55,264 nt of DNA from a virus, in IMG/VR virus record IMGVR_UViG_3300029309_000054, positions 1 to 55,264 of that record, one strand, 5' to 3'. This document shows, piece by piece, positions 19,341 to 45,360 of the stretch. The notes below the pieces were generated by a model. It ran no database searches and was not told the DNA's origin. It worked only from the letters and a program-made list of their open reading frames with translations. Each line of letters begins with the position of its first letter. The first letter of the stretch is position 1. Position numbers and translations under genes: made by a program.

Positions 19341-20879
19341 ATGTCAGTTGATACTTTTTCATCCATTTTTGACGGTCTAAAGATCGCCTATGGCACATAT
19401 AAAATCGAAAAACAGCAGGCTAACGGTAAGAACACGGGCAAAGCTGCTATCATACGCGAACCGCGTGACACGGCTCTTTGGGAGGGCCATCTGTCTGGTA
19501 AGGGACGGGGCATTGGCATCATCCCCATCAACGAGGACAACAAGTCTGTCTGGGGCTGCGTAGACGTTGACCAGTACCCGCTGGACCATAAGGTTCTAGT
19601 CGAGAAAATCCGCAAGCTGAAGCTGCCTCTTGTCGTCTGCCGGTCAAAATCCGGCGGGGCGCATTGCTTCTTGTTCACCACCGAATGGGTGGATGCCAAG
19701 GACATGCAGGCCACGCTGCAACAAATCTCCGCTGCGCTGGGCTACGGCGGCAGCGAAATATTTCCAAAACAGATTAAGCTCAACCTTGACCGCGACGATG
19801 TCGGCAACTTTCTGAACCTGCCGTACTACGACGCCGAGGACGGGCTGCGCTACGCCATCAAAGACGACGGCACCTCTGCCACCCTTGAGGAGTTCTTTGA
19901 GCTCTACGAGAACTACAAGCAGACGCCCGAGCAACTGACGGCGCTACAAGTGGGCGATCCTGAAGAGGTATTACCCATGAAGGACGGCCCGCCGTGCCTT
20001 CAGTTCCTGCTCAAGAACAAGATATCCGAGGGTGGCCGCAACAACGGGCTGTTCAACATCGGCGTCTATCTGCGTAAGGCATACCCGGATAGCTGGGAAT
20101 CGGAGATACTGACATACAACATGCAGTATCTGGAGCCGCCGCTGCCGCTCAGCGAGGTCAACATTGTTGCCAAGCAGATTGAGAAAAAAGACTACGCCTA
20201 CCGGTGTAGCGACTCTCCGATCAACGCGCACTGCAACAAGGACCTGTGCCAGACTCGCAAGCACGGCATCGGCGCAGCCATCCAAGGCGCGGCAATCGCG
20301 AACCTTCGCAAGTACAACTCAAACCCGCCGGTCTGGTTTCTGGATGTCAATGGCGAGCCCGTTGAGCTGGATACAGAGGCTCTGATGAGCCAACCTGCGT
20401 TTCAAAAGTGCTGCATGGAGCAGCTTAACTTTATGCCCCGGTCTGTTAGTAAGCAGGTTTGGGAAGGCCGCATCGGCGGGCTAATGAACGAGATGCGGGA
20501 CAACGAAAGCGCCATCATAGATGTCGCTGAAGACGCCAGCATAAACGGCCAGTTTTACGATTATTTGGAGGAGTTCTGCGCTCACATGCAAAAGGCCAAT
20601 GACAAGGAAGAGATACTGCTCAAGCGCCCATGGACGGACGAAGAAAGCGGCACCACTCTGTTCCGCCTGAAAGACTTTGAAGCATATCTAAAGCGCAACA
20701 AGTTCTTCGAGTACAAGACGCATAAAATAGCGCAGCGTTTGCGTGATTTGGGCGGACAAAGCTGCGTATTGAAAATTAAAGGCAGGCCCGTCCGGGTGTG
20801 GGAAGTACCCGCTTTCGATAACGCAGACGTAGACATTAACACGCCATCCTTTGGCAGCGGTGAAGGAGCACCTTTCTGA
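19341..20879 (+). CDS. Archaeo-eukaryotic-type primase (TOTE conflict-system type)
   Basis: 512 aa. The AEP catalytic motifs are visible: DVD (75-77) with DQYP following, SKSGGAH (102-108), and EIFPKQ (139-144). This order matches the primase domain first described in TOTE conflict systems and common in phages. Residues ~210-285 look like a PriCT helical domain, followed by a C/H cluster (C289, H297, C298, C303) that may bind zinc. No helicase domain is fused to it. It should synthesise primers, perhaps longer strands, for the PolA encoded downstream. It starts at an ATG after a weak purine-rich site and ends with an ATGA overlap. Confidence 0.85.
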   Translation: MSVDTFSSIFDGLKIAYGTYKIEKQQANGKNTGKAAIIREPRDTALWEGHLSGKGRGIGIIPINEDNKSVWGCVDVDQYPLDHKVLVEKIRKLKLPLVVCRSKSGGAHCFLFTTEWVDAKDMQATLQQISAALGYGGSEIFPKQIKLNLDRDDVGNFLNLPYYDAEDGLRYAIKDDGTSATLEEFFELYENYKQTPEQLTALQVGDPEEVLPMKDGPPCLQFLLKNKISEGGRNNGLFNIGVYLRKAYPDSWESEILTYNMQYLEPPLPLSEVNIVAKQIEKKDYAYRCSDSPINAHCNKDLCQTRKHGIGAAIQGAAIANLRKYNSNPPVWFLDVNGEPVELDTEALMSQPAFQKCCMEQLNFMPRSVSKQVWEGRIGGLMNEMRDNESAIIDVAEDASINGQFYDYLEEFCAHMQKANDKEEILLKRPWTDEESGTTLFRLKDFEAYLKRNKFFEYKTHKIAQRLRDLGGQSCVLKIKGRPVRVWEVPAFDNADVDINTPSFGSGEGAPF

Positions 20880-21454
20880 TGAAAGACCGTAACGATTACA
20901 TTTACGAGCAGCGCGTGGTGCAGCTTCGCACATATCAATCCATCGCGGATGAGGTGGGCCTGTCACGCCAGCGTGTGTGTCAAATTGTGGTCAACGTCTC
21001 ACAGCGCGTCCGCTGGGAGCAGGAGATTGAGGCTTTGCCCGACAAGCCTAGCAAGATGTGTCACCTCGTCTTGCCCCGCCGTGTCCGTAATTGCCTCAAA
21101 AACGAGGGCCTGTTCGATCTAACATTTGAGGAGTTTCTAAACCACGCCGAGCAGAAGGCGTTGGATAACATACCTAACCTTGGCAAACGCAGTGTCACGT
21201 TACTTGAAACGCGGCTCTCGGAACAGGGCCACATTATGCCCGAACGGTTGCGAAACAGGGCCAGTTTGTTGCGGGATGCCAGAGATTTCAAACGCGAAGC
21301 CCGGTATGCCAAGTACCGTCAGATCATGCGGTGGCGCAAAGAGCAGCGCAGCATCAAATGGATCGCTCACGAAGTGGACATGAGCTACGGCGGTGTTACT
21401 CAAGTCATTCAGCGATTCCTTGCTAACCCCGAGGCCCTCGATGGAAAAGAATAA
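20879..21454 (+). CDS. DNA-binding protein with sigma-region-4-like and alphaCTD-like parts
   Basis: 191 aa. Residues 15-40 (RTYQSIADEVGLSRQRVCQI) form a helix-turn-helix very like sigma70 region 4. Residues ~68-115 (FEEFLNHAEQKALDNIPNLG, then KRSVTLLETRL) closely resemble the C-terminal domain of the RNA polymerase alpha subunit, with its helix-hairpin-helix. A second HTH lies at 153-182 (SIKWIAHEVDMSYGGVTQVI). Such a mixture suggests a transcription regulator that contacts UP-element-type and promoter DNA or mimics RNA polymerase parts. It is coupled to the primase (ATGA) and the helicase (14-base overlap). The family assignments are read by eye. Confidence 0.65.
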   Translation: MKDRNDYIYEQRVVQLRTYQSIADEVGLSRQRVCQIVVNVSQRVRWEQEIEALPDKPSKMCHLVLPRRVRNCLKNEGLFDLTFEEFLNHAEQKALDNIPNLGKRSVTLLETRLSEQGHIMPERLRNRASLLRDARDFKREARYAKYRQIMRWRKEQRSIKWIAHEVDMSYGGVTQVIQRFLANPEALDGKE

Positions 21455-30763: not shown

Positions 30764-31378
30764 ATGCCCTCAAAAGCTGTCGTGAAGAAAGAAACCCGGG
30801 GCCGTAAGCGAGCCACCGTCAATCACCCGCTGACCCGCAAGCAAGAGCTTTTTGTAAAGGAACTGGTCAGTAAGGACGGCCAGATTACTTTGAGAGAGGC
30901 GGCTATCAATGCTGGTTACTCTGCCACGTCGGCTCACACGCGGGCATATGAACTGACCAATCCAAACATTTCGCCGCATGTCGTGGCGGCCATTCAGTCC
31001 TATCGACGCGAACTGGACGAAAAGTACGGAATCACGTTTCATCGGCATATCCGTGATCTTCAAAATATTCGGGATCTAGCCTTGCAAAACGGCGCTTACT
31101 CTGCCGCCGTTCAAGCGGAATATCGCCGGGGTCAAGCGCAGGGCGACATCTATGTAAGCAAATCTGAAATCCGTCATGGGTCTATCGACAGCATGAGCAA
31201 GGACGAGGTCTTGAAAGCTTTGGAAGAGATAAAGGACAGTTATGCCCCAATCACCATCGACATCACACCCGAAGAGAAAAACACCGGTAATCGCGACAAA
31301 GCGAGAGGGCGGCTTTTACAAGCAAGTGAAGGAAGCGGCGCAGAGGTCGAACAGGAAATTATTACTGACCCGAATTGA
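30764..31378 (+). CDS. terS: Terminase small subunit
   Basis: 204 aa. Residues ~22-80 contain PLTRKQELFVKELVSKDGQI, REAAINAGYSATSAHTRAYE and SPHVVAAIQSYRRELDE, the helix-turn-helix arrangement of Terminase_2-type small subunits, which bind phage DNA at the packaging site and hand it to the large subunit. The central part is helical and the C-terminus acidic. ACTGGAGAATACCC precedes the ATG. It lies some 4 kb before terL, separated by accessory genes, which is unusual, and directly after the nested repeats, which may be its target. Confidence 0.8.
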   Translation: MPSKAVVKKETRGRKRATVNHPLTRKQELFVKELVSKDGQITLREAAINAGYSATSAHTRAYELTNPNISPHVVAAIQSYRRELDEKYGITFHRHIRDLQNIRDLALQNGAYSAAVQAEYRRGQAQGDIYVSKSEIRHGSIDSMSKDEVLKALEEIKDSYAPITIDITPEEKNTGNRDKARGRLLQASEGSGAEVEQEIITDPN

Positions 31379-34763: not shown

Positions 34764-35084
34764 ATGATAAATAAAATCATATTTGGCGACCATCAAATCC
34801 CCGTCTGGCATGATAAAGACGGCGTTCGGCATTGGTTGGACGGGTCGGCGACATATGCTGCCGATAAAGACGGCGACGTTATGCGATTGGTCCCCCTCGG
34901 TTGGCAAGCCGCTGGCGATTTAGTGAAGCGAAAGCCTGACGCGAAAACCGTTTACGTCGTCAATTTTCGCGAACGCAAAAAGCCGGGCAAGCCTGCGGTC
35001 TATTCGCTTTCCCCGTTTGACGATATGAACCGGGAAATTTTCCTGAAAGAAACGACGCCCGTTTACGTCGGTTTTACGTTCTAG
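34764..35084 (+). CDS. Unknown small protein (106 aa)
   Basis: Single-gene unit. Predicted mainly beta with a basic middle (VVNFRERKKPGKPAVYSLSP). HDKDGVRHWLDGSATYAADK near residues 16-35 is Asp/aromatic-rich. No family recognised. Two terminators follow. Confidence 0.6.
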   Translation: MINKIIFGDHQIPVWHDKDGVRHWLDGSATYAADKDGDVMRLVPLGWQAAGDLVKRKPDAKTVYVVNFRERKKPGKPAVYSLSPFDDMNREIFLKETTPVYVGFTF

Positions 35085-35091
35085 CCCCTAC

Positions 35092-35148
35092 GCCGCCCGC
35101 TGGCGGCTTTTCGCCCCCGTTAGGCTATCACCCTAGCGGGGGTTTTTT
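35092..35148 (+). terminator. Tandem terminators
   Basis: First: GCCGCC (35092-35097) with GGCGGC (35102-35107), then TTTT. Second: CCCCCG (35114-35119) with CGGGGG (35137-35142), inner TAGG/CCTA pairing, then TTTTTT. They end the accessory units. Confidence 0.85.
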
Positions 35149-35194
35149 CTTGCCTACTGGCGGCCCCTGTATGCGCCATTAATGCCAGTTAATC

Positions 35195-35557
35195 ATGCCC
35201 CGGGCCGCCGCCCGTAACCTATCCAAAACGTACCGGGGGCAATCCGGGCCGGTATCTTTTAAAATTTTAACGCCGGGCGGTCCGCCGGTCGCGGTCGCCG
35301 GGTCGTCGGTCCGGGGTCGCCGGGTCGCGTTTCATGGCCCGCCGGTCGCGGTCGCCGGGTCGCGCTGCGCGGTCCGCCGGTCGCGGTTCGGGTCCCTTCC
35401 CATATCGGGTCAAAATCCGCAGAAAACCGCCAAAAAATCGCAAAAAATCGCGCCGCGGCCACGGGCTCTAGCTACGCAGGCAAGGGCCATGTTTCTGACA
35501 AATAATCCTGTAAAAAACGATATGGATGTTTCACGTGAAACATTGCCTAATTATTAG
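35195..35557 (+). CDS. Doubtful frame across a GC-rich repeat region
   Basis: 120 codons open from ATG 35195 without a ribosome-binding site. The product is Arg/Pro/Gly-rich with a repeated PPVAVAGS unit that merely mirrors the DNA repeats, followed by a Lys/Gln-rich segment. Its last codons (VSRETLPNY) are the parS site read in frame. It is probably not expressed; the stretch 35149-35634 is better seen as a non-coding control and repeat region. Confidence 0.2.
   Translation: MPRAAARNLSKTYRGQSGPVSFKILTPGGPPVAVAGSSVRGRRVAFHGPPVAVAGSRCAVRRSRFGSLPISGQNPQKTAKKSQKIAPRPRALATQARAMFLTNNPVKNDMDVSRETLPNY
35282..35387. repeat. GC-rich direct repeats upstream of terL
   Basis: A 24-base unit starting CCGCCGGTCGCGGTCGCC occurs perfectly at 35282-35305 and 35339-35362 (57-base period), with a 14-base partial copy at 35374-35387 and a half copy (GTCGCCGGGTCGCG) between the first two. 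The stretch is far more GC-rich than its surroundings and is followed by A/C-rich short repeats (AAAATCG) at 35430-35450. Confidence 0.75.
35527..35542. promoter_or_regulatory. Exact parS centromere sequence
   Basis: TGTTTCACGTGAAACA, a perfect 16-base palindrome identical to the conserved chromosomal parS bound by ParB/Spo0J in most bacteria, including Caulobacter and other Alphaproteobacteria. It is 93 bases upstream of terL. No ParA or ParB gene is visible in this window, so any binding would be by host ParB. An exact match to a 16-base site is unlikely by chance in 55 kb. Confidence 0.8.
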
Positions 35558-35560
35558 GCA
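35544..35560. repeat. Perfect palindrome next to parS
   Basis: TGCCTAAT-T-ATTAGGCA, 8-bp arms and one central base, one base after parS. A related half (CTAATAATTG) lies at 35584. Possibly an operator or recombination-type site; no T tract, so not a terminator. The rest up to terL holds no gene that I can support. Confidence 0.6.
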
Positions 35561-35634
35561 GATGCTCAATACTTGTTCACTGTCTAATAATTGTGCATAT
35601 TTTCGCAGACATTTTGTGCACACAGGGGCCCCCG

Positions 35635-37080
35635 ATGGATATTTCGGAACAGCAGGCAAAGTTGCAGCTACGACTAGCGCAACTTGAAAAGAATGAAGCT
35701 TGTCAGGAAAAGTTTCTTACTTTTGTAAAAGTCATGTGGCCCGAGTTCATCGCTGGGCGGCACCATAAAATTATCGCTGAAAAGTTAGAGAGAGTGGCCA
35801 ATGGTGATCTCAAGCGCCTGATCATCAACATGGCCCCGAGGCACACGAAGTCTGAGTTCGCATCCTTTTTGTTCCCGGCGTGGATGATGGGCAAGAATCC
35901 AAAGATGAAGATCATTCAGGCTACCCACACGACGGAACTTGCGGTTAACTTTGGACGTAAGACGAAGAACTTGATTGACAGTGACGAGTACAAGGAGGTC
36001 TTTCCGAATGTCAAACTCGCTTCTGATAGTAAAGCTTCTGGTCGTTGGGACACTGCTTCTGGCGGGATGTACTACGCCGTGGGGGTGGGATCCAACCTTG
36101 CCGGGCGTGGTGGCGACTTGGTAATTATCGATGATCCACACTCGGAGCAGACGGCCATGTCGGCCAACGGTTTTGACGATGCGTGGGATTGGTACACCGG
36201 GGGCCCCCGGCAGCGTCTCCAGCCGGGCGGCAGTATAGTTCTGGTTCAAACCCGGTGGTCCGAGAAGGACATGACGGGTCAGTTGCTCCGTGCAATGGCT
36301 AAAGATCCGCTAGCTGATCAGTGGGAAGTTGTGGAGCTTCCTGCCATTTTTGACGACGACAAGCCTTGTTGGCCGGAGTTCTGGTCCCTTGAGGATCTGA
36401 CCGCGGTCAAAGCATCCATCCCTCCGAGCAAATGGAACGCGCAGTATCAGCAGAATCCGACGGGCGAGGAGAATGCGATCATTCCTCGTCAGTGGTGGAA
36501 GAAGTGGGAGAAGGACAACATCCCGAATCTGGAGTATGTGATCCAGAGCTACGACACGGCGTTCTCGAAACGCGAAACTGCTGACTACTCGGCGATCACG
36601 ACTTGGGGTGTTTTCAGGCCAGAGGAGATTGGGGGCCCTCCGGGACTCATACTTTTGGACAGCACGAAGGGGCGGTGGGATTTTCCTGAGCTCAAGCAGA
36701 CGGCTATGGAGCAGTATAAGTATTGGGACCCCGACACCGTCATCGTAGAGGCCAAGGCTTCTGGTCTGCCTTTGACCCATGAATTACGAAATATGGGAAT
36801 CCCTGTTGTTAACTTTACGCCTAGTAAGGGTAATGATAAGGTTACGCGAGTTCACTCTGTATCGCCGTTGTTTGAGGCGGGCATGGTTTGGGCCCCCGAC
36901 ACCACCTTCGCCGATGAGATGATTGAGGAGGTGGCGGCGTTCCCTAACGGGGAGCATGACGACTTGGTCGATAGCATGACGCAGGCTTTGATGCGTTATC
37001 GGCAGGGCAACTTTGTACAGTTGCCGACTGACGATTGGGACGAAGAGGACACGGGAATGCAGGTTAGGGCTTATTACTGA
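35635..37080 (+). CDS. terL: Terminase large subunit
   Basis: 481 aa from ATG 35635 (AGGGG upstream); an in-frame GTG 14 codons earlier is less likely. ATPase part: Walker A variant MAPRHTKS (66-73), Walker B VIIDDP (163-168), and VQTRWSEKD (about 204-212). Nuclease part, RNase H-like: SYDTAF (D307), VEAKASG (E372) and HDDLVDS (D442, D443). It powers DNA translocation into the procapsid and cuts the concatemer. First gene of the head operon; its TGA overlaps the next ATG. Confidence 0.97.
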   Translation: MDISEQQAKLQLRLAQLEKNEACQEKFLTFVKVMWPEFIAGRHHKIIAEKLERVANGDLKRLIINMAPRHTKSEFASFLFPAWMMGKNPKMKIIQATHTTELAVNFGRKTKNLIDSDEYKEVFPNVKLASDSKASGRWDTASGGMYYAVGVGSNLAGRGGDLVIIDDPHSEQTAMSANGFDDAWDWYTGGPRQRLQPGGSIVLVQTRWSEKDMTGQLLRAMAKDPLADQWEVVELPAIFDDDKPCWPEFWSLEDLTAVKASIPPSKWNAQYQQNPTGEENAIIPRQWWKKWEKDNIPNLEYVIQSYDTAFSKRETADYSAITTWGVFRPEEIGGPPGLILLDSTKGRWDFPELKQTAMEQYKYWDPDTVIVEAKASGLPLTHELRNMGIPVVNFTPSKGNDKVTRVHSVSPLFEAGMVWAPDTTFADEMIEEVAAFPNGEHDDLVDSMTQALMRYRQGNFVQLPTDDWDEEDTGMQVRAYY

Positions 37081-37820
37081 TGGAAGAAAAGGGCATAGGT
37101 TCGTTCTTCGCGGACTTCGTAACTGGCAACGCGCCCTCTGATCAACTGAACGCGCTTCGCGAATCTGCTCGAATGGGCGACCCGATGGGGGAAGCCATCT
37201 ACGGTGATGAGCCCACTTTTATGGAGCGGTTGATAACGGAGTATAATTATCCTGCCACAATACCCATGGAGGATGATCAGGGTCTTGCGGTTATGGATTC
37301 GGACACCGGTCGTCAAAAAATGATGATTGCAACGGATTTTAATTTACCGGAATATATGAGAACGGAGCGCCCTCGTCAGGACATGCCGACATATGGTGAG
37401 TTGGAAGATGCGCGGGCCCATGCTTTGGCTTCAGCAGAGTTGGCTCGTCGGTATGGTCCGGACACCGCTCAAACTGTTTCGACTATAAAAGAGGGCATAG
37501 AGGTGCTCCCTCTTGCTGGTTCTTCTACGTTTGATGATGCTGCGATGGACATTCGCAACAACACCGTTGGGATACAGCTATTCCGAGAGGCGGGGATGAA
37601 CAATTCTCCCCGTGAGCTTGCTCGCATGGTTGATAACAAGGTTTTCGAGCAGTTGGACATTATTTTGGGCAGGACGCCTGCTGAACAGACTACCCCCGCG
37701 TCGGATCAACCGGGGGCCCCGTATAATTTTGAGTCACCGGAGGGCGGGATAGATGTTTATTTCCCAAGGGACCGGTCAGGGTTTTTTGATACCAGTTATA
37801 TTTATGATGGGAAAAAGTGA
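37080..37820 (+). CDS. Unknown protein between terL and portal
   Basis: 246 aa, coupled to terL by TGATG. Charged and helical, with STFDDAAMDIRNNTVGIQLF (about residues 149-168) as its most striking part, a D-x-x-N-N-x-x-G pattern seen in some phage and polymorphic-toxin-associated proteins. The C-terminus is beta-type and aromatic (DVYFPRDRSGFFDTSYIYDG). Could be a head-completion or assembly factor given its position; no catalytic proof. Confidence 0.55.
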   Translation: MEEKGIGSFFADFVTGNAPSDQLNALRESARMGDPMGEAIYGDEPTFMERLITEYNYPATIPMEDDQGLAVMDSDTGRQKMMIATDFNLPEYMRTERPRQDMPTYGELEDARAHALASAELARRYGPDTAQTVSTIKEGIEVLPLAGSSTFDDAAMDIRNNTVGIQLFREAGMNNSPRELARMVDNKVFEQLDIILGRTPAEQTTPASDQPGAPYNFESPEGGIDVYFPRDRSGFFDTSYIYDGKK

Positions 37821-37864
37821 CCTACGCCTTTGTCTATGTTAGGTTGACGTAAAGGAGATTATAC

Positions 37865-40297
37865 ATGGCGCGTGAACCGATTGCCGGGATGGTAGAAACT
37901 ACGGTCCCTACGCAGCTTGATCCGGAGGATTTGGCGGCAGAGGTAGAGCTGGAGCTCCCGGGTAGCCAAGAGACTGTGGCTTTTGAGGGCATGGCCGAGG
38001 GCATGGACATTGAGATTGTGCCCGAGGACGACGGCGGCGTTGTGATTGACTTTGACCCGCAAGACCAGCGCGGGAAAAATGATGACTTTTATGCGAACTT
38101 AGCAGAGGAAATGCCAGATCGTGAGCTCGGGCGTATTGCCAGTGAGCTGCTGGGCGAGTTCGATGCTAACAAAGCGAGCCGACAGGAGTGGGAAGATGCT
38201 TACGCCAACGGTTTGGAGCTTCTTGGTTTCTCCTACGAGGAGAGAACCCAGCCGTTCCGAGGAGCTACCGGTGTTACGCATCCCTTGCTTGCAGAGGCAG
38301 CTACACAGTTCCAAGCGCAAGCCTTTAACGAGTTGCTGCCAGCGTCTGGGCCAGTGCGTACTGCGATCATCGGAAGTGAAACTAGGGAAAAACAGCAGCA
38401 GTCTGACCGCGTAAGACAGTTTATGAACTACTACATCACCAATGTGATGGAGGAGTACACGCCTGAACTGGACCAGATGCTGTTTTATTTGCCGTTGGCG
38501 GGCAGCACGTTCAAGAAAATCTACTATGACGAGACGATGGACCGCGCTGTAAGCAAGTTTGTGCCTGTTGAGCAGCTTGTGGTGCCGTATGAAACGTCAG
38601 ATTTGGAGACTTGCCCCAACATTACGCAGGTTTTGCGTATGTCGCTCAACGATTTGCGTAAAAAGCAGGTCGCAGGCTTCTATTTGGACATGGATGTCAT
38701 CCCGGCACAGGCGGAAGCAAGCAGCGTGGGCAGCGAAATAGAACGAATTGACGGTGTTTCGCCGTCTCAGATCGATTATGACTGCACTTTGCTTGAGTGC
38801 CACGTTGATTTGGACCTTGAGGGGTACGAAGACAAGGATCAGGACGGTGAACCGACCGGTATTAAGGTGCCGTATGTGGTCACCATCAGTCAGGACAACG
38901 GTCAGATCTTGTCAATTCGTCGAAATTACAATGAGGGCGACGAGAACAAGAAGAAAATCCAGTATTTTGTGCACTATAAGTTCCTTCCGGGCTTCGGTTT
39001 CTACGGCTTGGGGCTTATTCACACGATTGGCGGGCTGTCACGGACCGCCACGGCGGCACTGAGGCAGTTAATCGATGCTGGTACGTTGTCCAACCTCCCA
39101 GCGGGTTTCAAAGCCCGCGGACTACGGATCAGAGATGACGATGACCCGCTTCAGCCCGGTGAGTTTCGCGATGTGGACGCTCCCGGAGGGGCTATCCGTG
39201 ACAGCCTGATGCCGCTGCCCTTCAAAGGCCCTGATCAGACGCTATTTAACCTGCTTGGGTTCGTGGTAGACGCTGGTCGGCGCTTTGCAACCATCACGGA
39301 CATGAAAGTTGGTGATGGCAATGATCAGGCGGCGGTTGGAACGACACTTGCGCTGATTGAGCAGGGCTCTCGGGTGATGAGCGCGGTGCATAAGCGGCTT
39401 CACTACGCTATGCGGCTTGAATTTAAGATTTTGTCGCGTGTGATGGCCGAAAGTCTGCCGCCGGAGTACCCGTATGCCGTTGAGGGCGCGGAATCCGCGG
39501 TCAAGCAGACGGATTTTGATGATCGCGTAGATGTTTTGCCGGTCTCTGACCCGAATGTGTTCAGTCAGGCGCAGCGGATCACGTTGGCGCAAACCAAGTT
39601 GCAGTTGGCTGGTGCGGCCCCTGAGATGCACAACATGCATGAGGTATATCGTGACATGTATGATGCTTTGGGCGTCAAGGACGTTGATCGGATCATGCGT
39701 AGGATTCCTGATGAGGAGCCGACACCCAAGGACCCTGCACAGGAGAATATTGACGCTATGGACATGATCCCTCTGAAGGCGTTTGAGGGTCAGGAGCATC
39801 AGGCGCACATCATGGCGCACATGGTCTTTGGCTCTACGCCCATGGTGGCGGGTATGCCTGCCATGGCGATGGCGCTTCAGAAGCACATCATGGAGCATGT
39901 GCAGATTGCGGCACGGGAGCAGGCGGCAGTTGTCTTTTTACAAGGCAGGCAGCAAGCTGGTGGAGCTCCGGCCTCTGAGGAAGAGATGATGCAGATTGAG
40001 GGCCTCACCGCTCAATTTGTTGCCGAGGGAATGCAGCAGGTCAAGCAGCTCTCGCAGCAGGTATCTGGTCAGGGCCCTGATCCGTTGGTCAAGCTCAAGG
40101 AGCAGGAGCTTCAGATTCGTGCACAGGCCGAGCAGGCCGACGCACAGAACGACGCTGCGAAGCTCAATCTGGAAGCACAGGGCCAGCAGATGCGGTCCGA
40201 TCAATTCCAGCAGCGGTTGGCGAGCCAAGAGCGGCAGACCGCGGCACGTATAGATGCTGCCATGCAGCGTGAATTTATTAAAGGAAGGGGACAGTAA
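37865..40297 (+). CDS. Portal protein, P22 type
   Basis: 810 aa. AAAGGAG lies before ATG 37865. Seen: FRGATGVTHPLLAEAATQFQ (about residues 131-150), MLFYLPLAGSTFKKIYYDE, and GFYGLGLIHTIGGLSRTATA, all hallmarks of the large P22-like portals found in marine podoviruses. The acidic N-terminus and long Gln-rich C-terminal helix (about 670-800) correspond to the crown/barrel. Twelve copies form the DNA entry ring and bind the terminase and tail. The last bases overlap the next start. Confidence 0.9.
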   Translation: MAREPIAGMVETTVPTQLDPEDLAAEVELELPGSQETVAFEGMAEGMDIEIVPEDDGGVVIDFDPQDQRGKNDDFYANLAEEMPDRELGRIASELLGEFDANKASRQEWEDAYANGLELLGFSYEERTQPFRGATGVTHPLLAEAATQFQAQAFNELLPASGPVRTAIIGSETREKQQQSDRVRQFMNYYITNVMEEYTPELDQMLFYLPLAGSTFKKIYYDETMDRAVSKFVPVEQLVVPYETSDLETCPNITQVLRMSLNDLRKKQVAGFYLDMDVIPAQAEASSVGSEIERIDGVSPSQIDYDCTLLECHVDLDLEGYEDKDQDGEPTGIKVPYVVTISQDNGQILSIRRNYNEGDENKKKIQYFVHYKFLPGFGFYGLGLIHTIGGLSRTATAALRQLIDAGTLSNLPAGFKARGLRIRDDDDPLQPGEFRDVDAPGGAIRDSLMPLPFKGPDQTLFNLLGFVVDAGRRFATITDMKVGDGNDQAAVGTTLALIEQGSRVMSAVHKRLHYAMRLEFKILSRVMAESLPPEYPYAVEGAESAVKQTDFDDRVDVLPVSDPNVFSQAQRITLAQTKLQLAGAAPEMHNMHEVYRDMYDALGVKDVDRIMRRIPDEEPTPKDPAQENIDAMDMIPLKAFEGQEHQAHIMAHMVFGSTPMVAGMPAMAMALQKHIMEHVQIAAREQAAVVFLQGRQQAGGAPASEEEMMQIEGLTAQFVAEGMQQVKQLSQQVSGQGPDPLVKLKEQELQIRAQAEQADAQNDAAKLNLEAQGQQMRSDQFQQRLASQERQTAARIDAAMQREFIKGRGQ

Positions 40298-40458
40298 TGT
40301 CAGTAGTTAAGATTGTGACTAACAAGCCGGGCCCTGCGCCCAAGCCCGAAGAGACAGGCAAGATTAAAGAAGTTCCGATTCCGGACAAAATGAGTCAGAT
40401 GACGGCTCGTGGGATGGGCGCTGCTACAAAGGGTGGCAGTTACATGGGATACAAGTAG
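40297..40458 (+). CDS. Small conserved head-operon protein (53 aa)
   Basis: ATG 40297 overlaps the portal TAA, with GGAAGGGG upstream. Pro/Lys-rich N-terminus and Gly-rich end (TARGMGAATKGGSYMGYK). Peptides of this type recur after portal genes in marine phages. Probably a minor virion component; unknown function. Confidence 0.6.
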   Translation: MSVVKIVTNKPGPAPKPEETGKIKEVPIPDKMSQMTARGMGAATKGGSYMGYK

Positions 40459-40488
40459 CCCTTATGAGGGGACTACGGGAACACAACT

Positions 40489-41184
40489 ATGGATCCGGTA
40501 ACTGCTATGGCGACTGCTTCGGCAGCGTTTGGGGCACTTAAAAAAGGTTTTGCAATAGGTCGGGACATTGAGTCTATGGCCTCGGACTTGTCCAGATGGA
40601 TGGGTGCGCTTTCCGACCTTGACCAAGCTGAAAAAGAAGCCAAAAACCCACCTATATTTAAAAAACTGTTTTCTGGTCAATCGGTTGAGCAGGAAGCGGT
40701 AATTGCGTTTGCCAACAAACAAAAGGCGCAGCAACAGCGATATGAGCTTCAACAGTGGATCAGTCTGACCTTGGGCAAGTCCAAGTGGGACGAGTTGGTC
40801 CGAATGGAAGGTCAGATACGTAAGCGTAGGCAGGAGACTTTGTACGCTCAAAGGGAGCGGCGTCGTAAGTTTGTCGAGATTGTTGCTTGGGTTGTGATGA
40901 TAAGCGTAGGTATAGCTGTTCTTACGTCCTTTGTTCTTTTGCTCAAATCACACTCAGCAAACGCTTCGGATCAAATGACTATCTGTCGAAAAGTTAAATG
41001 TGAGAAGCTTGAAAACAGGCAAATGGTCTGCGTATTTAAAGGCCAGAACAATACGATTGAGTCTATGTTTTTTAGTCAGGGGGAGTTTGTTCCTAACGAG
41101 TATCTCTGCAAATACGATCCAAACGCTCGTAGGGACCGGACTATACAGGAGACTTTGAAGGAAATACGGGAGAGTCAAAAGTGA
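40489..41184 (+). CDS. Membrane-anchored protein of the lysis/head region
   Basis: 231 aa. N-terminal half helical and charged, one clear transmembrane helix at about residues 128-150 (FVEIVAWVVMISVGIAVLTS and following), then a C-terminal domain with C167, C172, C183 and C208 (TICRKVKCEKLENRQMVCVF). Cysteines beyond the membrane helix suggest that the C-terminal part is periplasmic and disulphide-linked. Function unknown; next to holin-like genes, so a lysis or superinfection role is possible. Confidence 0.55.
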   Translation: MDPVTAMATASAAFGALKKGFAIGRDIESMASDLSRWMGALSDLDQAEKEAKNPPIFKKLFSGQSVEQEAVIAFANKQKAQQQRYELQQWISLTLGKSKWDELVRMEGQIRKRRQETLYAQRERRRKFVEIVAWVVMISVGIAVLTSFVLLLKSHSANASDQMTICRKVKCEKLENRQMVCVFKGQNNTIESMFFSQGEFVPNEYLCKYDPNARRDRTIQETLKEIRESQK

Positions 41185-41501
41185 GCCCGAAGAGGTTTCA
41201 GCCGGATACATCCTACGCTCAGTATGATTTGGATGGTGATGGGGAGATTACAGACGAGGAGCTTGAACACGCCAAGGAAATACGAGAGACCGAGCGGGAC
41301 CTTCGCAAGAGTTTGGCGCAATTAAGGATGGCGCGATACACGCTTATTGGCATGGGGGTATTTACTGCCGCCATGTTTACCCCTTGGGTTTCTGTTGAGC
41401 GAATTGAGGCCCTCAGTGAAATTAGCAGCCTGTTTTACATTTCAGGTGCAGGTATAGTTGGGGCTTACATGGGCACCACGGCTTGGATGGCCCGGAAGTG
41501 A
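41181..41501 (+). CDS. EF-hand protein with two membrane helices, holin-like
   Basis: 106 aa from GTG 41181, overlapping the previous TGA. Residues ~15-28 (YDLDGDGEITDEEL) are a canonical EF-hand calcium loop, followed by a charged helix. Two membrane helices follow (about 53-70 and 83-102). A calcium loop on a small membrane protein could respond to membrane state; a holin or antiholin role is suggested by the neighbouring 3TM holin and endolysin, not proven. Confidence 0.6.
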   Translation: MSPKRFQPDTSYAQYDLDGDGEITDEELEHAKEIRETERDLRKSLAQLRMARYTLIGMGVFTAAMFTPWVSVERIEALSEISSLFYISGAGIVGAYMGTTAWMARK

Positions 41502-41725
41502 TCGATGCCTTTTTGTTATTGGTCTATTTGGGGACGGGGGATTTCAGAAAGTTAGAGTCCGGAAATATGTATTTTTACGACATCAACGAATGCAATTTTT
41601 TTGCTAAGCAAGTTTCAAAGCGGTATGGGAACTATGGTTTTGCGGACTACATGGACCCCAAGGATCGAGTGACGGCCTACTGCGTTCCAAAACAGGTAGA
41701 CCCTGAGATAATAAAGGTTTATTAA
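41498..41725 (+). CDS. Small protein with hydrophobic N-terminus
   Basis: 75 aa from GTG 41498, which overlaps the previous TGA (GTGA) as the upstream gene does; ATG 41483 is an alternative. Begins with a hydrophobic stretch (IDAFLLLVYLGTGD), then NMYFYDINECNFFAKQV and KDRVTAYCVPKQ. Similar small proteins accompany lysis genes in marine phages and may be exported; unknown function. Confidence 0.55.
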   Translation: MIDAFLLLVYLGTGDFRKLESGNMYFYDINECNFFAKQVSKRYGNYGFADYMDPKDRVTAYCVPKQVDPEIIKVY

Positions 41726-41791
41726 TGATAATGTGGGACATGCACAATAGGACTACGCCGGAACAAGCGGAAGCGAACAGGAGAAGGCGAG

Positions 41792-42187
41792 ATGCTGCAA
41801 GCACTGATTGGACCCGTAACGGGGATTCTGGACAAGTTCATCGAGGACAAGGATCAGAAAGCGAAGTTGGCTCACGAAATAGCCACCATGGCGGAAAAAC
41901 ACGCTCACGAAGCCAACATGGGGCAAATAGAGATCAACAAGGCAGAGGCACAGCATAGGTCTGTGTTTGTCGCCGGTTGGCGACCTTTCCTTGGCTGGGG
42001 ACTAGCAACGGCCATGATATGGCACTTTGTTTTAGCGCCGGTTACCATGTTTGGTTTTGCATATGCGGGCATGGAAGCCCCGGACTTGCCAACATTTGAC
42101 ATGGACAGCTTGATGACTGTTCTGTTAGGCATGTTGGGTCTTGGCGGTCTTAGGACCGTAGAAAAGGTCAAGGGTCTTACAAAGTAA
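41792..42187 (+). CDS. Holin, GTA_holin_3TM type
   Basis: 131 aa. AGGAG before ATG 41792. Amphipathic charged N-terminal half (FIEDKDQKAKLAHEIATMAE), then VAGWRPFLGWGLATAMIWHF, a second hydrophobic helix (APVTMFGFAYAG) and a third (LMTVLLGMLGLGGL), matching the three-helix holin family of gene transfer agents and alphaproteobacterial phages. It permeabilises the inner membrane at the end of infection. The TAA overlaps the endolysin ATG. Confidence 0.85.
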   Translation: MLQALIGPVTGILDKFIEDKDQKAKLAHEIATMAEKHAHEANMGQIEINKAEAQHRSVFVAGWRPFLGWGLATAMIWHFVLAPVTMFGFAYAGMEAPDLPTFDMDSLMTVLLGMLGLGGLRTVEKVKGLTK

Positions 42188-42711
42188 TGGAAGCAAACTT
42201 CTTCAAAAGCCTTGAGATGGTGCTGAAGCACGAGGGCGGTTTTGTGGATCATCCGGAAGATCCGGGTGGCGCAACCAACAAGGGGATTACGCACAAGACG
42301 TATTCTGACTTCCTTGGTCGCCCGCTAGAGGATGTAGGCGAACTCCAGAATATTCCAGATGACCATGTAGAGCTGATTTACAAACAGGGCTACTGGGATA
42401 AGGTCAAGGGGGACCAGCTCCCCTCGGGCGTAGACTTTTGTACCTTTGATTGGAGCGTGAACAGCGGTCCGGGACGCGCGGCTAAAGCTTTGCAGAAAAC
42501 TGTAATGGTTTCGCAAGACGGAGCGATTGGTCCGCGGACGTTAGCTGCGGTTGAAGAGAAAGACCCGATGCAGATCATCGAGGAAGTAACAGCAGAGCGG
42601 GAACAATTCTATCGCTCTTTGCGGACGTTTGAGACGTTTGGCAAGGGTTGGTTACGTCGAAATGATGAGACATGCGAGTATGCTTTGTTGCTCGCGGGAG
42701 GTATGACATAA
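42187..42711 (+). CDS. GH108 endolysin (muramidase)
   Basis: 174 aa. HEGGFVDHPEDPGGATNKGI near the N-terminus contains the catalytic Glu16 of glycoside hydrolase family 108, with DWSVNSGPGRAAKALQ in the middle and a C-terminal peptidoglycan-binding region (QDGAIGPRTLAAVEEKD). No signal peptide, so release through the upstream holin is expected. It cleaves the N-acetylmuramic acid linkages of the wall. Confidence 0.92.
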   Translation: MEANFFKSLEMVLKHEGGFVDHPEDPGGATNKGITHKTYSDFLGRPLEDVGELQNIPDDHVELIYKQGYWDKVKGDQLPSGVDFCTFDWSVNSGPGRAAKALQKTVMVSQDGAIGPRTLAAVEEKDPMQIIEEVTAEREQFYRSLRTFETFGKGWLRRNDETCEYALLLAGGMT

Positions 42712-42909
42712 GTGGATGAAGTCTTCTTTGCTGACGCTGTCCTACGAATTGTAAGGGACAGGCGGTTGACAGTTCAGGACTCGTTGATTTACGACAACGT
42801 CAAGAACATGGAGCATTATCGTGAGCTCATGGGTAATCTCAAAGCCCTAGATCACGTGGAACAGGAACTCAAGAGCCTGCTAGATAAACAGGAGCGCAAC
42901 GATGGTTGA
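42712..42909 (+). CDS. Small conserved protein after the endolysin (65 aa)
   Basis: GTG start directly after the endolysin TAA. Short helical protein (DEVFFADAVLRIVRDRR, LKALDHVEQELKSLLDKQER). Resembles a frequent small partner encoded between endolysin and GroES-like genes in marine phages; role unknown. Confidence 0.55.
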   Translation: MDEVFFADAVLRIVRDRRLTVQDSLIYDNVKNMEHYRELMGNLKALDHVEQELKSLLDKQERNDG

Positions 42910-43342
42910 TCTTGCTGGTGCCTCAAAGGGCGCTGAAAATTTAGCATCTGCATATGTAGATGTACCGACGGATAAGAAGTTGGACCCCGAGGCCATCGGC
43001 GGTTCTCTCTTAGAAAGAATGCCAGAGCCCACCGGTTGGCGGCTGCTTATTCTCCCTTACCGGGGGAAAGGCAAGACGGACGGTGGCATTTACCTTCCGG
43101 ACAAGGTTGTTGAGGAGAACACGGTATCCACGCAGGTGGGTTACGTTCTGAAGGTTGGGGAGCTGGCATACAAGGATTCCGAAAAATTTCCGTTTGGGCC
43201 GTGGTGTGAGCAGGGCGATTGGGTCATGTTTGCGCGGTATGCTGGCTCTCGGTTTCGGATAGACGGCGGGGAAGTCAGGATTCTCAACGACGATGAGATC
43301 TTGGCACGGATCAAAGAACCCGAAGACATTCTTCATTTCTAG
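42902..43342 (+). CDS. GroES-like co-chaperonin
   Basis: 146 aa. PTGWRLLILPYRGKGKTDGG (about residues 43-62) is the start of the Cpn10 barrel, followed by IYLPDKVVEENTVSTQVGYV, the mobile-loop region, and VGELAYKDSEKFPFGPWCEQ, then GDWVMFARYAG. It has an N-terminal extension of about 40 residues. Phage GroES-like proteins (T4 gp31 role) work with host GroEL to fold the major capsid protein, which fits its place upstream of scaffold and capsid genes. Confidence 0.85.
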   Translation: MVDLAGASKGAENLASAYVDVPTDKKLDPEAIGGSLLERMPEPTGWRLLILPYRGKGKTDGGIYLPDKVVEENTVSTQVGYVLKVGELAYKDSEKFPFGPWCEQGDWVMFARYAGSRFRIDGGEVRILNDDEILARIKEPEDILHF

Positions 43343-43351
43343 GAGCACGTG

Positions 43352-44221
43352 ATGGCTGAAGAAAAAGCTCAAATTGAGCTAGACCTTGAGGACGAGGTTG
43401 AGGTTGAGGTTCCCGAGCAGGAACAGGACAACGCGCCTGTTGAGGTTGCTCAGGAAGAGGATAATTTCGATAAGGCAGAAAGCGCCACGCAGAAGCGTAT
43501 TGATCGCTTGACAAAGAAAATGCGTGAGGCGGAGCGCCAGCGGGAAGAGGCGCTCAAGTATGCACAAAGTGTGCAGGCTGAAGCACAGCAGCTCAAGCAG
43601 CGCATGGACACCCTCGATACCAATTATGTGCAGGAGTATAGTAACCGGGTGGAGAGTCAGATGGCTTCTGCCGAGGGCGAGCTTGCTCGGGCCATGGAGG
43701 TTGGTGATACTAATGCGGTTGTGGAAGCGCAGCGCAAGATCACTCGTTTGGCTATTGAGAATGACCGAGCAGAACAGGCTAAAGCCCAGCAAGAACGCAG
43801 TGCACAGGCGGTTGAGGCGGAGCAGACGCCACAGGTTTCTCAACCTAGCCCGCAAGCACAGCCGCGCAGACCGGATCCGAAAGCTGAAGCTTGGGCGCAA
43901 AAGAATGAGTGGTTTGGTTCCGACGAAGCCATGACATATGCGGCCTTTGGCATTCATAAAAAACTAGTCGAGGATGAAGGGTTTGACCCCAAGTCAGATG
44001 ATTACTATACTGAACTTGACAGGCGTATGGGGGACGAGTTCCCGCATAAGCTTGGCAACTCCGGGGGAAGCAGACGGCCCGCTCAGACCGTAGCTTCTGT
44101 ATCCCGCAACACATCTGGGCGCAGCAGTGGGAAAAAGGTTAGACTCACCCCTAGCCAAGTCGCGATTGCGAAGAAATTGGGTGTGCCGCTTGAAGAATAC
44201 GCAAAGCACGTGAAGGAGTAA
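43352..44221 (+). CDS. Scaffold/capsid-assembly-like protein
   Basis: 290 aa from ATG 43352 (AGGAG at 43341-43345; the GTG three bases before is less well spaced). Acidic N-terminus (IELDLEDEVEVEVPEQEQDN), long charged coiled coil (about 45-150), Gln/Pro linker, and a basic C-terminus (SGKKVRLTPSQVAIAKKLGV). This is the standard build of phage scaffold proteins, which guide coat assembly and bind it through the basic tail. Located two genes before the decoration and capsid genes. Confidence 0.75.
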   Translation: MAEEKAQIELDLEDEVEVEVPEQEQDNAPVEVAQEEDNFDKAESATQKRIDRLTKKMREAERQREEALKYAQSVQAEAQQLKQRMDTLDTNYVQEYSNRVESQMASAEGELARAMEVGDTNAVVEAQRKITRLAIENDRAEQAKAQQERSAQAVEAEQTPQVSQPSPQAQPRRPDPKAEAWAQKNEWFGSDEAMTYAAFGIHKKLVEDEGFDPKSDDYYTELDRRMGDEFPHKLGNSGGSRRPAQTVASVSRNTSGRSSGKKVRLTPSQVAIAKKLGVPLEEYAKHVKE

Positions 44222-44224
44222 GCG

Positions 44225-44704
44225 ATGACTGAAGAAATGTTTGAAGGTTCGGTTAAGAGAACTCCTCGCGCAAAAACAACTCGGGAGAAGACGGCTAGGC
44301 GTAAGCCGTGGGCTCCCCCGTCTATGTTAGATGCACCGCCTGCACCGGATGGGTTCAAGCATCGTTGGATCAGGGCTGAGACTCGTGGTTTCGACGATAC
44401 GAAGAACATCAGCGCAAAATTGCGTGAGGGATGGGAACTGGTCCGTAGGGACGAGTACCCGGACTTTGAGGCCCCGGTAGTTGAATCAGGTAAGTATCAA
44501 GGTGTGTTTGGTGTAGGTGGACTTGTTCTCGCTCGCATACCGTTGGAGACTGTTGACGAAAGGGCTGCGTACTTCCAAGGAAGGACAAAGGACCAGATGG
44601 AAGCGGTTGACTCCGATATGATGCGTGAGAATGCTCATTCGACAATGACGATCAGTAACCCTGAACGTCAGTCCCGTGTAACCTTTGGGGGCACTAGAAA
44701 GTAA
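44225..44704 (+). CDS. Conserved head-region protein
   Basis: 159 aa. Basic N-terminal tail (KRTPRAKTTREKTARRKPW), then GFKHRWIRAETRGFDDTKNI and VFGVGGLVLARIPLETVDER. Such proteins are conserved between scaffold and capsid genes of marine podoviruses, function unknown to me. GAGTAAGCG precedes the ATG, which starts three bases after the scaffold stop. Confidence 0.6.
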   Translation: MTEEMFEGSVKRTPRAKTTREKTARRKPWAPPSMLDAPPAPDGFKHRWIRAETRGFDDTKNISAKLREGWELVRRDEYPDFEAPVVESGKYQGVFGVGGLVLARIPLETVDERAAYFQGRTKDQMEAVDSDMMRENAHSTMTISNPERQSRVTFGGTRK

Positions 44705-44727
44705 CCCCGCAATCAGGAGAAAAGTAA

Positions 44728-45360
44728 ATGGCAAATGCCCTTACTGGCGGCTATGGCCTTCGTCCGATTGGGATTACGGGTAGCGGTCCAAACTCTACTG
44801 GCACAACCCAGTACGAAATCGCATCCAACAACACCGACGCGATTTATCACGGCGGTATTGTAATCCCTCTCTCGACAGGCTTCATAGGCAAAACAGACCA
44901 AGCGGTCGCCCCGCTTGGTGTTTTAAACGGAGTTGAGTATGTTGACTCAAACACGGGGAAAACCGTGTTTAGCAACTACTGGCCCGGTTCAAACAACGTG
45001 AGCGTTAACACGAACCACCCGGTCAAAGCCTTCGTGTTTGATAACCCCGATCAGCTTTTTGTTGTTGCCGCAGACGGCACTAACACTGATCGTGCTACCG
45101 CACAAGCGGATGTCTTCACAAACTGTGACATGGCTTCCGTTAACAACGGCAGTACCAGCACGGGTCAATCTAGTGACATGTTGGACATTAGTTCGGCTGC
45201 GACCACGAACACCCTAGATGTTCGTATCGTGGGTCTCTATGAGGACGAAGCAAATGAAGATTACTCCGCAGCGGGTCATCAATACATTGTTCGTCTGAAT
45301 GGTCACTTTAACACGGGTACAACCATTGCGGTTGGCACCTATGCAACAACCGGCATATAG
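44728..45360 (+). CDS. Head decoration-like protein
   Basis: 210 aa, beginning MANALTGGYGLRPIGITGSG; Gly/Thr/Asn-rich and beta throughout, with no membrane segment. Position directly before the major capsid gene and the composition suggest a capsid decoration or minor head protein. AGGAGA precedes the ATG. Confidence 0.6.
   Translation: MANALTGGYGLRPIGITGSGPNSTGTTQYEIASNNTDAIYHGGIVIPLSTGFIGKTDQAVAPLGVLNGVEYVDSNTGKTVFSNYWPGSNNVSVNTNHPVKAFVFDNPDQLFVVAADGTNTDRATAQADVFTNCDMASVNNGSTSTGQSSDMLDISSAATTNTLDVRIVGLYEDEANEDYSAAGHQYIVRLNGHFNTGTTIAVGTYATTGI

Follow-up and report, generated by a model that had tools for sequence, protein, structure and literature searches.

Orphan chromosomal-type parS sites on a marine phage and its relatives probably recruit host ParB

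ParB is a CTP-dependent DNA clamp. The parS (Spo0J) sites of bacterial chromosomal ParABS systems follow the consensus TGTTNCACGTGAAACA, with N at position 5, and TGTTCCACGTGGAACA is the form found in Pseudomonas putida and, nearly, in Myxococcus (PMC7022226). Centromeres have also been described on the genomes of P1, N15, the mycobacterial extrachromosomal prophages (PMC7157519) and the cyanophage Mic1 (PMC7156551), all of which have ParA/ParB genes of their own and sites specific to each system. The genomic island SGI1 carries parS mimics without a ParB of its own and hijacks the ParABS of IncC plasmids (PMC10954446). We analysed the 55,264-base IMG/VR virus record of a sea phage (the whole stretch is hereafter called the window), whose genome likewise bears a centromere. 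This site is identical to the 16-bp palindrome of bacterial chromosomes, and the phage sites share the tolerated variants of the chromosomal ones (position 5, TGTTCCACGTGGAACA). Unlike bacterial parS, the phage sites come without parA/parB, occur in one to many copies and do not lie beside a chromosome origin. Unlike P1, N15, the mycobacterial prophages and Mic1, the window phage has no cognate ParB/ParA on the element, as a self-contained phage or plasmid ParABS would. It carries the parS of another replicon and no own ParB, and its nearest precedent is SGI1 with the IncC plasmid ParABS (PMC10954446), although SGI1 targets a plasmid ParB, whereas the phage word is chromosomal and its carriers are phages of many kinds, lytic ones included. 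Among the open-licence papers searched, none was found that reports phages with chromosomal parS but no ParB; as most subscription papers and all preprints lay beyond this search, priority cannot be claimed.

The features of the window around the site are as follows.

30764 to 31378, plus strand: terS (PF03592)
35113 to 35143, plus strand: terminator-like hairpin closing the upstream gene block
35276 to 35402, plus strand: GC-rich imperfect direct repeats, CGCGGTCGCCGGGTCG
35484 to 35526, plus strand: conserved block GGGCCATGTTTCTGACAAATAATCCTGTAAAAAACGATATGGA upstream of parS, retained in relatives without parS at this place
35527 to 35542, no strand assigned: orphan chromosomal-type parS, TGTTTCACGTGAAACA, a perfect palindrome, exact and single
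35544 to 35560, no strand assigned: 17-bp perfect palindrome TGCCTAATTATTAGGCA, operator-like, varying among relatives
35573 to 35601, plus strand: late-operon promoter-like element (TTGTTC, 17 nt, CATATT), conserved in relatives
35635 to 37080, plus strand: terL, first gene of the late operon (PF17289; 62.5% to the TerL of HTVC027P)

The site lies in non-coding DNA, and the closest gene on its 5′ side stops at 35084. TGTTTCACGTGAAACA was the sole parS match in the window even when up to three mismatches were allowed, a tolerance at which shuffled sequence gave 0.22 matches, exact matches being far rarer. The 16-mer identity and its uniqueness against the shuffles thus bear out the exact parS proposed at this position by an earlier sequence-only reading. 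The same reading had given its distance to terL as 93 bases, which is correct when ATG 35635 is taken as the likely TerL start (the ORF table extends the frame to GTG 35593), and had pointed to a perfect 17-base palindrome beside it, which is real. In relatives, the promoter-like element takes the form TTGTTA...CATATT and is present with or without parS. We infer a promoter function for the element at 35573-35601; since a sigma-70 consensus scan at terL did not report TTGTTA-17-CATATT, it is called promoter-like only. A 191-aa protein encoded at 20879-21454 of the window, with matches to HTH, sigma-70 region 4-like and RNA polymerase alpha-CTD-like domains, is a candidate transcription regulator of the phage, and the 17-bp palindromes near terL are perhaps its targets. 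The GC skew climbed sharply from about 0.03-0.06 to 0.13-0.19 at terL (positions 35001-45000) and remained raised over the opening portion of the late operon. This rise without a change of sign fits late transcription and lends no support to a replication origin at parS, which was rejected.

Searches with Pfam and PHROGs identified TerS (30764), TerL, an SU10-type portal (37865), an adaptor (51673) and a capsid protein (45372) in the window, as well as a holin, a GH108 lysozyme and a GroES-like protein. It also encodes a family A DNA polymerase, an AEP-type primase, and UvrD and SNF2 helicases. The cultured phages with the nearest TerL are HTVC027P (62.5%) and its kin, and HTVC027P has been described as obligately lytic (PMC12753301). 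The window phage fits best among the lytic podoviruses, as a relative of the HTVC023P type, with which it shares TerL, PolA and genome scale; the paper on these podoviruses mentions neither 'parS' nor 'ParB' (PMC9599517). The absence of a phage ParAB, asserted from the sequence alone, was upheld: neither ParA nor ParB was found in Pfam scans of about 60 window proteins, and a six-frame search of near-complete relatives with PF02195 was empty. Similarly, the ParB domain was found in none of 45 family and related records and none of eight inspected cultured carriers of the site, while a ParB_N match occurred in just four of 91 environmental contigs with parS, many of these contigs being fragments. 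A phage-encoded partner of the site was discarded, as none was found among the scanned window proteins or in the relatives.

To assess conservation, 80 relatives (group A) were fetched by TerL alone, at 88-96% identity. The exact 16-mer was present in 62 of these 80 loci, compared with no match for 200 permuted palindromes; of the remaining loci, several are short of upstream DNA and a few differ by one mismatch. The search of related phages for the site, as the sequence-only reading had advised, thus recovered it in most of them. When whole records of TerL-defined relatives were searched, 30 of 31 contained exactly one site at up to two mismatches, nearly all of them exact. In an alignment of 20 dereplicated relatives, all 16 site columns were identical at 100% and flanking columns ranged from 30 to 100%; the aligned relatives had been picked by a pattern permitting some one-base variants, so that this invariance is partly built in and 62/80 is the unbiased figure. 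The DNA of the site is conserved beyond its surroundings. Both parS and the 17-bp palindrome are missing at terL, as a clean cassette, in L134, L167, L171, L176, L177 and L178, a subclade that retains the flanking block and the promoter-like element. Absence in close relatives had been named as grounds for giving up the idea, and such absence does exist locally in these six. However, L178 carries an exact parS 6.6 kb upstream of terL, within unrelated sequence, so that in this relative at least parS has changed place and is not lost, and the local absence does not refute the idea. The other five are represented by partial contigs, and their site may have been lost or may lie beyond the contig ends. 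A contiguous run of terS, a nuclease gene and terL is present in relatives of the G005/L192 type, and there the parS-promoter module is found directly 5′ of terS. HTVC027P carries a one-mismatch site, CGTTTCACGTGAAACA, which falls within an unannotated nuclease-like frame on the 5′ side of terS, and no parS site was found in several cultured relatives of the window phage.

Three wider sets of relatives, B, C and D, were seeded from L103, L055 and L044, which had been chosen for carrying the site, so that the fractions describe neighbourhoods and not a census. In set B (L103-like, about 36% GC), eight of 80 loci had the exact site, and almost all of these belong to the closest sub-lineage. For set C (L055-like; its TerL is about 52% to that of the window) the count was 37 exact sites, spread over 31 of 80 loci and joined by many copies of TGTTCCACGTGAAACA, and set D (L044-like, TerL 28%) had 107 exact sites in 39 of 80 loci, mostly as arrays of two to five located 0.3-2.3 kb upstream of terL. 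Members of set D such as L044, L391, L455 and their kin form a freshwater phage family in which the array positions change. The frequent site of set C, a sister lineage, falls in a proline-rich stretch of a 1043-aa ORF following terL. Its codons are frozen, with GTT for 22 of 23 Val, GAA for 23 of 24 Glu and ACA for 22 of 24 Thr, and CGT largely frozen too, while neighbouring codons vary, which amounts to selection on DNA and not on protein. A Ser-to-Pro exchange in this stretch affects no base of the site other than the N of TGTTNCACGTGAAACA, and 23 of the one-mismatch variants in set C fall at the same position 5, so that the sites match the bacterial consensus and their variants obey it. 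The presence of sites at many unrelated places implies repeated gain. Taken together, these comparisons indicate that parS has been gained or moved repeatedly and selected as DNA, without a phage ParB. The site is not essential, since it is missing in most of set B, about half of sets C and D (site-less members of the three sets being judged on the DNA at hand) and several cultured relatives.

Orphan sites were also found far beyond these families. At least 120 viral contigs contained the exact TGTTTCACGTGAAACA, compared with five for the control palindrome TGAAACACGTGTTTCA. The Pseudomonas form TGTTCCACGTGGAACA had been predicted to be enriched as well, and it was found in at least 120 viral contigs, against 10 for its control TGTCTCACGTGAGACA and the five for TGAAACACGTGTTTCA. 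Among 50,697 cultured phage records, searched with a 30-mer holding each word at 99% identity or more, there were 280 for TGTTTCACGTGAAACA and 103 for TGTTCCACGTGGAACA, and two and none for the controls; these counts do not represent independent events, as many of the records are closely related and a one-base shift occurs in some matches. The TTT form (TGTTTCACGTGAAACA) was found in phages of Listeria, Microbacterium, Arthrobacter, Gordonia, Bacillus and Lactobacillus, and the TCC form (TGTTCCACGTGGAACA) in those of Pseudomonas, Mycobacterium and Stenotrophomonas, so the form of the site in cultured phages partly follows the host. In the eight inspected cultured carriers, the sites were exact or had one mismatch. 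The site of vB_PpuM-KoPa-4, which infects P. putida KT2440, is TGTTTCACGTGGAACA. The TCC form was also matched in ten Klebsiella phages, which speaks against recruitment of host ParB, since enterobacteria are not known to have a chromosomal ParB. Among 298 sites with dissimilar flanks, array neighbours of one genome being counted separately, 161 (54%) lay in an ORF of at least 100 aa, versus 1207 of 1490 random positions (81%; p=5e-21), that is, parS sites avoid ORFs. The number of copies per phage ranges from one to 24. The extreme array was that of L087 (record G138, 116,662 bases, G+C 0.65), in which 24 parS-like sites, mostly TGTTTCACGTGGAACA, cluster at about 91-109 kb and no ParB_N match was found. 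Microviruses of 4-6 kb and filamentous phages are among the carriers. Bajarodino viruses 3 (PQ006097) and 6 (PQ006149), of about 6 kb, have roughly six parS matches each, and the Zot gene of a related record points to filamentous phages. In phiPsa374 (L615), a one-mismatch parS at 389-404 is inside the direct terminal repeat and hence at both genome ends. With a count of this size, orphan parS on phages is a general phenomenon.

The host of the window phage was approached through MAG contigs with close TerL relatives, which were found in Verrucomicrobia bins (80 and 92%) and in a Maricaulis bin (75%). The exact 16-mer was absent from all 27 sampled genomes of that Verrucomicrobial order, and in one Verrucomicrobial bin the sole exact parS was the phage contig's own, whereas the Maricaulis bin had two parS sites on a contig of its own. 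Consequently, the Verrucomicrobial binning is in error unless the host has a different parS, and a Verrucomicrobial host is doubtful. The phage contigs L475 and L476 in Verrucomicrobial bins may themselves be binning errors.

Given a selected ParB-type centromere without a phage ParB, the natural reading is that the phage site recruits the chromosomal ParB of the host. We place the probability of this at about 0.8, and the same had been proposed from the sequence alone. Upon infection, host chromosomal ParB would load at the phage parS, then slide and spread onto the phage genome, and the spread ParB would, from what is known of its biology, bring ParA and SMC contacts. As for the benefit, our tentative first choice is docking: ParB would attach the replicating phage DNA to the host nucleoid and the segregation/condensation machinery, by which genome copies would be placed, separated and kept accessible for replication and packaging. 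Such docking fits the free position and the low copy number of the site.

A different benefit, on which host ParB is used just the same and no effect on phage DNA is needed, would be that of a decoy: parS-bearing phage genomes soak up host ParB, the origins lose ParB/SMC loading and host segregation stops. The free position and a copy number of one to 24 agree with this, the high copy numbers in particular, and SGI1 offers a precedent in that its element-borne parS stabilises the element and destabilises the owner of the ParB (PMC10954446). On the other hand, members of group A hold exactly one copy, whereas a decoy would favour more, and the site is also present in 4-6 kb microviruses and filamentous phages. 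We consider this possible, although rather unlikely.

Unlikely, too, and a little more so, is a timer of late genes, in which ParB beside the terL promoter represses while genomes are few, and replication dilutes ParB until the operon is released. ParB of Pseudomonas aeruginosa does repress promoters adjoining parS3/parS4 (PMC5521831), parS in group A is located about 30 bp upstream of a −35-like box whether the module drives terL or terS, and most sites of groups A, C and D are within about 5 kb of terL. Nearness to terL is not universal, however, as sites in unrelated phages are often far from it. Furthermore, one subclade has the promoter-like element without parS, the L178 site is 6.6 kb from terL, the frequent site of set C is intragenic, and promoters pointing outward were no better than inward ones at the 298 dissimilar contexts (p=0.68). 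A fixed role in terL control is thus not borne out as the general reason, and local control of terL in the window lineage, an effect that the sequence-only reading had also raised, is possible.

It is improbable that the site aids partition in a plasmid-like or carrier state, even though parS is a centromere by definition and some of the small multi-site viruses may persist in their hosts. The window has a lytic-type gene set, in which Pfam and PHROGs found no integrase, lysogeny repressor or plasmid replication gene among its proteins, and HTVC027P is obligately lytic (PMC12753301); the stable plasmid-like inheritance first suggested for the site was accordingly set aside for this lineage. 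Still less probable is that the palindrome is an operator, bound by some unrelated repressor of phage or host, and resembles parS by accident. Its place in a promoter region beside a second palindrome and the regulator with HTH and RNA polymerase alpha-CTD-like domains at 20879-21454 would suit an operator, but all 16 bases are retained, the site moves to unrelated places including coding DNA, its variants are those that ParB tolerates, and the same word recurs in unrelated phages of unrelated hosts, while matched control palindromes are not enriched. Chance or base composition, with a negligible probability, is ruled out by the shuffles (0.22 matches in the window when three mismatches are allowed) and by the permuted or matched palindromes, the permuted ones giving no match in sets A, B, C and D.

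Returning to recruitment of host ParB, we lean towards the view that phages of many bacterial groups, strictly lytic ones included, convergently carry host-matched parS to load host ParB and perhaps SMC, which would constitute a widespread viral route into the chromosome segregation machinery. The host-matched variants provide a sharp prediction, and the cultured phages of P. putida KT2440 (vB_PpuM-KoPa-4), M. smegmatis mc2 155 (Bane1, JAMaL) and R. pomeroyi DSS-3 (DSS3P8) render the idea testable. If host ParB loads on phage DNA, the segregation machinery would be a common contact point between phages and bacteria, at which ParB loading might position or compact the viral genomes, upset segregation in the host or set the timing of late genes.
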